A program made the translations under genes and the position numbers. The notes below the pieces were generated by a model. It was given only the letters and a program-made list of their open reading frames with translations. It was not told the DNA's origin and ran no database searches. 64,000 bases of DNA, taken from positions 62,001 through 126,000 of the forward strand of contig JAISTB010000005.1 of assembly GCA_031272775.1 (NCBI GenBank), in the 5' to 3' direction. Numbering within the stretch: the stretch's first letter is position 1; every line of letters begins with the position of its first letter. This stretch comes from Fusobacteriaceae bacterium (GTDB taxonomy: Bacteria; Fusobacteriota; Fusobacteriia; Fusobacteriales; Fusobacteriaceae). Of the stretch, positions 36,023-37,959 are shown piece by piece.

Positions 36023-37120
36023 TTATTCCGCTACGCCCAAAAGCGGCGCGTCGTAGGCGAAAAGCGTGTTGTTGATCTCAAAAATATCATATTTTCGCAT
36101 GGAGATGTAATTTTTCACGACCACGTCGAGCAGGATACTCCCGGAAAAGGCAAAACCCGCCCGTTTCATGAGGTCATCGGCCTCGTCGGGCGTCAATTTC
36201 AGCGCCACGATCAAAGCCAGGACGGTTTTTTTGCTTGGCGTATAATTGGGATTTCGGATTTTGCTGAAGAGCTTGCGGTCGATATTGGCCCGTTTGTAGA
36301 CTTCCACGTCCGTCAGACCCTTTGCGGCGATCAATTGCATGAGGATCGTCGAAAAAGGTTTTTCCAGCTCGACGTTGACGGCGAGCGCGCCGTGGATCAT
36401 TGCGCCGATTTTTTTCATTACCGGAAATTTATTGTCTGCTAATGTTCCAGGATGCTTCCGGTAGCTCTCTGTTATGGTTTGGCTTTTTGTTTTTGCGGAA
36501 GCTCGCGAGATTTCCATTGGCCTTGGGTCTTCGTTCTCATGGAGCAGATCGAACCTTTCGGAGAATTCCAAATCAGCTTCCGCCGGCCCCGGGGCGTCAT
36601 AAAGAAGCCCCTCGATTTCTCCCCGCAGCGCCGCTGCTATGGGGGCCTGGATCGGCTCAAAGATCACGAGATAAACCAGCGGCTCCGCCTCGTTCGCCAG
36701 GAGATAATCCCGGATGCTCTCCGTCGCCACCCGCAGGGCTTCTTTTTTCGGATAGCCGAAGATCCCGCTGGAAATCAGCGGAAAGGCGATGCTCTGGCAG
36801 CCGTTTTCCACGGCAAGGGCGAGGCTTTTTTGATAGGACGAGCGGAGCAGCGCCTCTTCGCCGTGCATCCCGTCCCTGTACCGGGGGCCGGCCGTGTGAA
36901 TGACGTATTTTGCAGGCAGGGCAAAACCCGGCGTGATGACGGAAGCGCCCGTCTCAATGGGCGCCAGCTTGTCGCAGGCCGCCTGCAGCTCCCGACTTCC
37001 GGCGGCGCGAAATATGGCGCCGCAGACGCCGCCGCCCTGCAAGAGATGCTCGTTGGCCGCGTTCACAATGGCGTCGACCCGCATTTTTGTAATATCCTGA
37101 CGGACAATCGTTAAAGGCAT
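36023..37120 (-). CDS. Macro-domain protein with C-terminal HTH-like domain
   Basis: A 365-residue protein. Residues about 1-165 are a macro domain, which binds or hydrolyses ADP-ribose derivatives: DAIVNAANEHLLQGGGVCG and PLISSGIFGYPKKEA are the ligand-binding loops. A linker (about 185-235) leads to a C-terminal domain with an XRE-like helix-turn-helix appearance (KGLTDVEVYKRANIDRKLFS and PSKKTVLALIVALKL). Similar macro/HTH pairings exist in Firmicutes; targets are unknown. The ATG at 37120 follows GGAGGG. A REP-associated transposase lies just upstream. Confidence 0.85.
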   Translation of the reverse strand: MPLTIVRQDITKMRVDAIVNAANEHLLQGGGVCGAIFRAAGSRELQAACDKLAPIETGASVITPGFALPAKYVIHTAGPRYRDGMHGEEALLRSSYQKSLALAVENGCQSIAFPLISSGIFGYPKKEALRVATESIRDYLLANEAEPLVYLVIFEPIQAPIAAALRGEIEGLLYDAPGPAEADLEFSERFDLLHENEDPRPMEISRASAKTKSQTITESYRKHPGTLADNKFPVMKKIGAMIHGALAVNVELEKPFSTILMQLIAAKGLTDVEVYKRANIDRKLFSKIRNPNYTPSKKTVLALIVALKLTPDEADDLMKRAGFAFSGSILLDVVVKNYISMRKYDIFEINNTLFAYDAPLLGVAE

Positions 37121-37136: not shown

Positions 37137-37703
37137 TCATTCTTCCCGTAAGTCGTCTTTGTCCCAATTCGCGGGATTATTGATGATGTATTCCGCGATG
37201 TGAGCGTATTCGGCCTCATCGCGGATAATGCGTTCGTAATAATTGCGTTGCCATAATCGCTTGTTAAATGATGACCAATTCTCTTGTTTTACGCCGTCCG
37301 CATATCGTTTCGTCGTCAGTGTTTTGATACGGTGAACAATATCATTCAACGACAATCTCGTAGGGGCAACCCCCTGTGGTTGCCCCGCACATTCGGGCGA
37401 TTGCCTATTTTCAGGGCAGGCACGGGGGCCTGCCCCTACGATTTCTATGATCAGGTGGATATGGTTTTGCATTATCGTATATTTGCCTAGTCGGATGCCG
37501 TCATAATGGTTTGGCATTTCATCCAACACCGATTTTATCATCTTGCCTGCACCATTCAACGTCATCCCTTCATTCATAATCTCCCCAAACAGACATCTGC
37601 GGTCCTGCACGCAAATCGTCACGAAGTACGCCCCGTTCTGCGCATAATCATAGCTTTTTAATCTGACGCTTCTGCGATGGTGTATATCAGGATTGTATCT
37701 CAT
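37137..37703 (-). mobile_element. REP-associated tyrosine transposase (RAYT, Y1/IS200-like)
   Basis: A 188-residue single-strand transposase of the TnpA-REP type. It has the N-terminal RRSVRLKSYDYAQNGAYFVT, the metal-binding HUH motif in QNHIHLI, and the C-terminal WQRNYYERIIRDE and YIINNPANW that are typical of RAYTs. Such enzymes mobilise short palindromic REP sequences. Exactly 27 codons (37360-37440) between the HUH motif and the C-terminal helices are an 81-bp copy of the palindromic element also found at 37758-37838, read in frame as VGAGPRACPEN...QPQGVAPT. GGAGG precedes the ATG. Whether the enzyme stays active with the insert is unknown. Confidence 0.88.
37360..37440. repeat. REP-like palindromic element, copy 1 (inside the transposase gene)
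   Basis: 81 bp, identical to the copy at 37758. It holds two hairpins: GGGGCAACC/GGTTGCCCC and GGGCAGGC/GCCTGCCC, and its ends GTAGGGGCA and TGCCCCTAC are complementary. Its length is a multiple of three, so it keeps the transposase frame open. Confidence 0.92.
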
Positions 37704-37757
37704 CCCAACCTCCGCTGGTTTGGTTTATTGCATCAAAAAACAAAATTATTGGGATTT

Positions 37758-37838
37758 GTAGGGGCAACCCCCTGTGGTTGCCCCGCACATTCGGGCGATT
37801 GCCTATTTTCAGGGCAGGCACGGGGGCCTGCCCCTACG
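37758..37838. repeat. REP-like palindromic element, copy 2
   Basis: An exact 81-bp match, in the same orientation, to copy 1. It lies 54 bases before the transposase start codon, the usual place for RAYT-linked REP elements. The rest of the 327-base gap to the next gene holds only the glucosaminidase promoter and A+T-rich sequence. Confidence 0.92.
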
Positions 37839-37959
37839 GTTGGTTTTATCTCTATTGACAAAATTATCGCGGATTACTGTCTTCTTTACTATTATACACG
37901 ATCCGCTCTCGCTTTTCAATCAGAACTTCCCCTCATCTCCCCCGCCATTTTTATTTTTT

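Follow-up and report, generated by a model that had tools for sequence, protein, structure and literature searches.

RAYTs (REP-associated transposases) and their REPs are among the most widespread repeat systems of bacteria. For the E. coli RAYT, recognition of single-stranded REP DNA and cutting at GTAG are established (cited in PMC3733652). A predominant trait of TnpA-REP subclass 2.4 (RAYT group 4 in Bertels et al. 2017), unique to that subclass, is the insertion of REPs in frame within the gene, generally between the HuH and Y motifs (Quentin et al. 2018, PMC6006769). These insertions were suggested to have little impact on activity (PMC6006769), and our literature search, with incomplete journal coverage, found no later treatment of in-gene REPs. 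The subclass is further characterized by an 8-aa insertion at the end of alphaB, a variable insertion between beta3 and alphaC, and flanking GTAG REPs with a canonical long or double foot. The locus described here shares with subclass 2.4 the motifs NH[IFV]H, WQ and YIxNNP, a length of ~190 aa, and GTAG REPs that both flank the gene and sit in frame inside it, between the HuH and Y motifs. Compared with the published description, it differs in that the upstream copy matches the inner one at every one of the 80 bp, the spacer among them, and in that the repeat is unamplified in the host. Since in-gene REPs are already published for this subclass, the locus is a clean new example of a known habit; the measurements of DNA-level conservation, occupancy and flank matching are new here.

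Other known systems resemble the locus in part. Intragenic GTAG REPs in other genes were described earlier (PMC3733652) and, like the Rickettsia palindromic elements cited there, are in-frame palindromic repeats in coding genes, but they target unrelated host genes, whereas here the target is the transposase itself. Pseudomonas REPINs (PMC3116915) likewise consist of two inverted REPs beside a RAYT, yet they form high-copy populations, in contrast to the two full copies of our element. The IS200/IS605 TnpA proteins (IS608, ISDra2) have the HUH/Tyr fold in common with our protein; the gene studied here, however, scores below the NCBIfam IS200 cut-off, is present in single copy and is flanked by GTAG REPs.

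The locus lies within a 64,000-nucleotide stretch of DNA (the window) and comprises the following features:

37137..37703, minus strand: RAYT / TnpA-REP gene, 188 aa, with NHIH (HUH), WQRN and YIINNP (catalytic Tyr) motifs
37360..37440, minus strand: inner REPIN copy, in frame within the RAYT gene, 80-bp GTAG...CTAC plus one base, encoding VGAGPRACPENRQSPECAGQPQGVAPT in the predicted loop from HUH strand to helix
37414..37439, minus strand: REP hairpin GTAGGGGCAGGCCCCCGTGCCTGCCC of the inner copy, on the gene sense strand
37360..37386, plus strand: REP hairpin GTAGGGGCAACCCCCTGTGGTTGCCCC of the inner copy, on the gene antisense strand
37758..37838, minus strand: outer REPIN copy, identical to the inner one, 54 bp upstream of the RAYT start codon
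37812..37837, minus strand: REP hairpin of the outer copy, GTAGGGGCAGGC type
37758..37784, plus strand: REP hairpin of the outer copy, GTAGGGGCAACC type

A repeat search of the window matched 37360-37452 to 37758-37850 at 95%, with 81 bases (GTAGGGGC...GCCCCTACG) at 100% and in the same orientation. The initial annotation, made from the sequence alone, had described two identical 81-bp elements in the same orientation; identity and orientation were borne out, while the element proper, GTAG...CTAC, measures 80 bp and base 81 is a flanking G common to both copies. An exact match of 80 bp argues against a chance repeat. In both copies the element consists of two different GTAG hairpins inverted to each other (a REPIN) with complementary ends, as had been proposed, and the folding of its strand gave z = -4.46, with 0/200 shuffles equally stable. 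The placement of one copy 54 bases before the start codon and one inside the gene was also correct, and no flanking GTAG REP was found downstream of the gene within the window. Read in the gene frame, the inner copy runs GTA GGG GCA ... CCT ACG, 27 codons free of stops, so that the frame stays open as claimed. The spacing from HUH to W is ~67 residues here versus 44 in the insert-free clade member L045, a net gain of only ~23 residues; the 27 codons are therefore the length of the copy, not necessarily that of the indel. An ORF at window positions 36023-37120 on the minus strand begins 16 bp past the RAYT stop and, by eye, encodes a macro domain followed by an apparent helix-turn-helix region.

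The 188-aa protein matched Pfam Y1_Tnp. Its score against NCBIfam REP_Tyr_transpos NF047646 was 57.9 bits, under the curated cut-off of 80, which the insert-free relative L045 also failed to reach (76.1); against the IS200/IS605 model NF033573 it scored 27.4 bits (cut-off 55). The HUH, WQRN and YIINNP motifs are all intact, with hardly any variation across an alignment of 50 rows: NHIH occupies residues 80-83, with H81 and H83 invariant in the 50 sequences, and W151 Q152 and YIINNP (172-177) are present. A phmmer search of the PDB with the protein returned no match, whereas a Foldseek comparison of its AlphaFold2 model (mean pLDDT 86.8) matched IS200/IS605 transposases as well as 4ER8, a structure of the E. 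coli RAYT in complex with a REP hairpin. The model places the inner copy in a low-confidence, unstructured surface loop (~residues 89-118, block pLDDT 55-58) between the HUH strand (81-88) and the next helix (119-141). The predicted fold match to 4ER8 and the cognate REP hairpins alongside support the identification as a REP-associated transposase, and with the frame open the protein would carry its own palindromic element, as first annotated. It probably belongs to TnpA-REP subclass 2.4, as it displays the features tested: NH[IFV]H, WQ, YIxNNP, an in-frame REP, an insertion between beta3 and alphaC, and flanking GTAG REPs.

To place the inner copy in context, 80 RAYT loci spanning many phyla were collected by core-motif patterns, and their ORFs were taken and searched for GTAG-tagged hairpins. 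Hairpin density was 2.79/kb in RAYT ORFs, 2.08/kb within 300 bp of them and 0.25/kb farther out; control permutations of the tag that do not overlap the REP palindrome gave 0.07-0.14/kb in ORFs. Among the 80 genes that could be divided into zones, some of them relatives belonging to the window's own family, at least one GTAG hairpin lay between HUH and WQ in 61, and between RSIRL and HUH in 7. The figure of 61/80 is a lower bound because the detector misses decayed REPs: L037, L039, L055, L060 and L067 were scored as REP-less yet have GTAGGGGC octamers in the loop. Search rank did not bias loop REP presence (30/39 vs 25/33). Where no REP lies between RSIRL and HUH, the spacing is exactly 61 aa in 66/73 genes; the 7 genes with a REP in that interval have spacings of 67-104 aa. 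The loop is the most occupied stretch of all: it holds a REP in 76% of genes, whereas the 36-bp bins directly downstream of the stop and upstream of the start do so in 28% and 17%, respectively; 27 loci have an inner REP and none within 300 bp of the gene. Three genes of a single genome (L014, L017, L008) carry in-frame REPs at two sites, before and after the HUH strand, in opposite orientations.

The commonest in-loop form was a plus-then-minus pair, i.e., a REPIN (35/61). Sense REPs were read in frame 0 (n = 42) or frame 1 (n = 17) and never in the frame in which TAG is a stop. The position and orientation of the REP inside the loop vary among relatives, and a search for a target-site motif at the insertion point found the 4 nt preceding GTAG to be diverse. 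Intact RAYTs without any inner REP also exist, among them L045, L070 and L077. At L091:2001-2642, the C-terminal tail of the RAYT is a tandem GTAGGGGCGATTCGCATT array (CRGDSH repeated), that is, REP-derived coding repeats.

In-gene REPs match those of their own flanks. The mean best identity was 0.93, compared to 0.73 for mismatched loci, and identical in-gene and flank REPs occurred at 16/36 loci but in only 6/1260 mismatched pairings (0/20000 permutations). REP similarity also tracks core-protein distance (Mantel rho -0.35, 0/2000 permutations), cross-phylum pairs included, and close cross-phylum RAYT pairs showed a REP identity of 0.93. Over 49 such close cross-phylum locus pairs, identity was 0.86 at REP third codon positions, 0.87 at REP positions 1+2 and 0.50 at core third positions of shared residues, with unrelated REPs giving a baseline of ~0.73. 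Part of the 0.86 is trivial, since the GTAGGGGC and GCCC ends are fixed; the absence of a codon-position pattern in the REP is the telling part of this comparison. Elsewhere in the gene third positions approach saturation, but in the REP they have changed no more than the other two; this shows that it is the DNA sequence of the inner repeat, and not the peptide it encodes, that is conserved. The stems vary in a compensatory way (changes on both sides in 31 cells vs 9 in shuffles, a difference to be read with caution as the detector selects for pairing). Counted without the pairing-selecting detector, octamers that start a hairpin numbered 96/106 in the loop versus 80/100 in the flanks (p = 0.047). 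The RAYTs of a cyanobacterium, a Nitrospirota and a Chloroflexota MAG (L083, L091, L094) have cores ~60% identical, yet their loops hold one and the same 28-bp palindrome, GTAGGGGCGGTTCGCGAACCGCCCCTAC.

On the core tree of the 80 genes, in-loop REP presence changes at least 17 times. Members of the window's clade (support 97) differ in the orientation of a REP pair that they share (L006, L028 and L031 versus L029 and L030), and the insertions are therefore likely to have been separate. Among the 61 loci with in-loop REPs, only the window locus has its whole element, including the spacer, identical to a flanking copy (80/80); the next best exact match is 37 nt, and elsewhere, short single-palindrome elements aside, only the hairpins match the flank and the spacer does not. 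This full identity points to a recent copy or conversion, and the earlier suggestion of a recent event or gene conversion is thus likely. In a close relative, L012 (G045:C264), the RAYT ORF stops just past the inner REP (GHMQCAPTKT, then a stop), with another REP next to it; this gene looks as if it was broken by rearrangement at its own repeats.

A search of the window's genome (a draft of 2.09 Mb in 41 contigs) found one RAYT of this type, two full copies of the element and one half copy joined to a different REP. The element is thus not a dispersed, multi-copy REP/REPIN in its host. Further GTAGGGGC hairpin families are present there. The near-absence of further copies of the element comes close to an outcome that the initial annotation had named as speaking against it. 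The other adverse outcome it had named, a loop varying without any match to a repeat, was not seen: in relatives this loop holds REPs cognate to the respective RAYT, and it is the repeats that cause the loop variation. For that reason, the reading of the insert as an inner REP survives the near-absence of host copies. In the phylum, a profile built from insert-free relatives found such RAYTs in 6/98 genomes, patchily distributed, and 7/9 of the genes carry an inner REP. REP families such as GTAGGGGCGAATGAATATTCGCCC occur in the window genome (G000 C8:26100, C16:65277) and in the genus (G050) without an obvious matching RAYT of the window type.

The explanation we favor, and consider likely, is that a RAYT of TnpA-REP subclass 2.4 (RAYT group 4) carries its cognate REPIN in frame as a tolerated insertion, refreshed by new insertion or conversion. 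The enzyme would cut and join single-stranded REP DNA at GTAG, and copies would land preferentially within and beside the transposase gene; those that are stop-free and in frame in the loop from HUH strand to helix would be tolerated and others purged. Turnover rather than selection may then keep the inner copy fresh, through new insertion or conversion with neighboring REPs, and inner copies refreshed in this way would follow the specificity of the enzyme, not protein constraint. The lack of spread through the host genome suggests that the event in the window was recent, and it may date from the RAYT's arrival by horizontal transfer or later. Weighing against this explanation are the scarcity of other host copies, the NF047646 score below cut-off, and a loop occupancy that, relative to the flanks, exceeds what simple tolerance of nearby insertions predicts.

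Occupancy and integrity of the loop copies may leave room for selection on the element itself. Here the inner REP would be a selected cis-acting element, either because RAYT-bound DNA or folded mRNA limits the gene's own expression or because a linked substrate travels with its enzyme. Such selection would account for the excess of loop REPs over the nearest outside 36-bp bins, for inner hairpins at least as intact as flanking ones, for the loci with a REP in the gene only, and for DNA-level conservation with compensated stems, subject to the detector's preference for pairing. It fits less well with the several intact RAYTs that lack an inner REP and with the varying in-loop position and orientation, and turnover by repeated insertion would account for the DNA-level conservation too; we regard the selected-element reading as rather unlikely. 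Retention of the 27 residues for their protein sequence, for example as an extension for REP recognition, is very improbable. The insert invariably keeps the frame and occupies one and the same loop, but relatives read the same REP in other frames and orientations, conservation is similar at all three codon positions, the loop is predicted to be unstructured, and intact relatives do without it; given the varied frames and orientations and the missing codon-position pattern, protein-level selection on the insert was rejected. That the assembler duplicated a single copy is scarcely credible: the genome is a draft in many contigs, but each copy has unique, differing flanks on both sides, the inner copy leaves the frame open, and independent genomes show this arrangement as well.

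A gene with its own substrate inside it preserves the match between enzyme and repeat in one molecule, with enzyme and cognate hairpin together, and thus bears on how a RAYT stays matched to its repeat. Were the inner REP a selected element, a built-in copy of the substrate would tie RAYT specificity to the repeat, which could serve self-regulation or allow the two to move together between phyla. The conservation of the repeat as DNA across phyla makes the choice between selected element and passenger testable by synonymous recoding.
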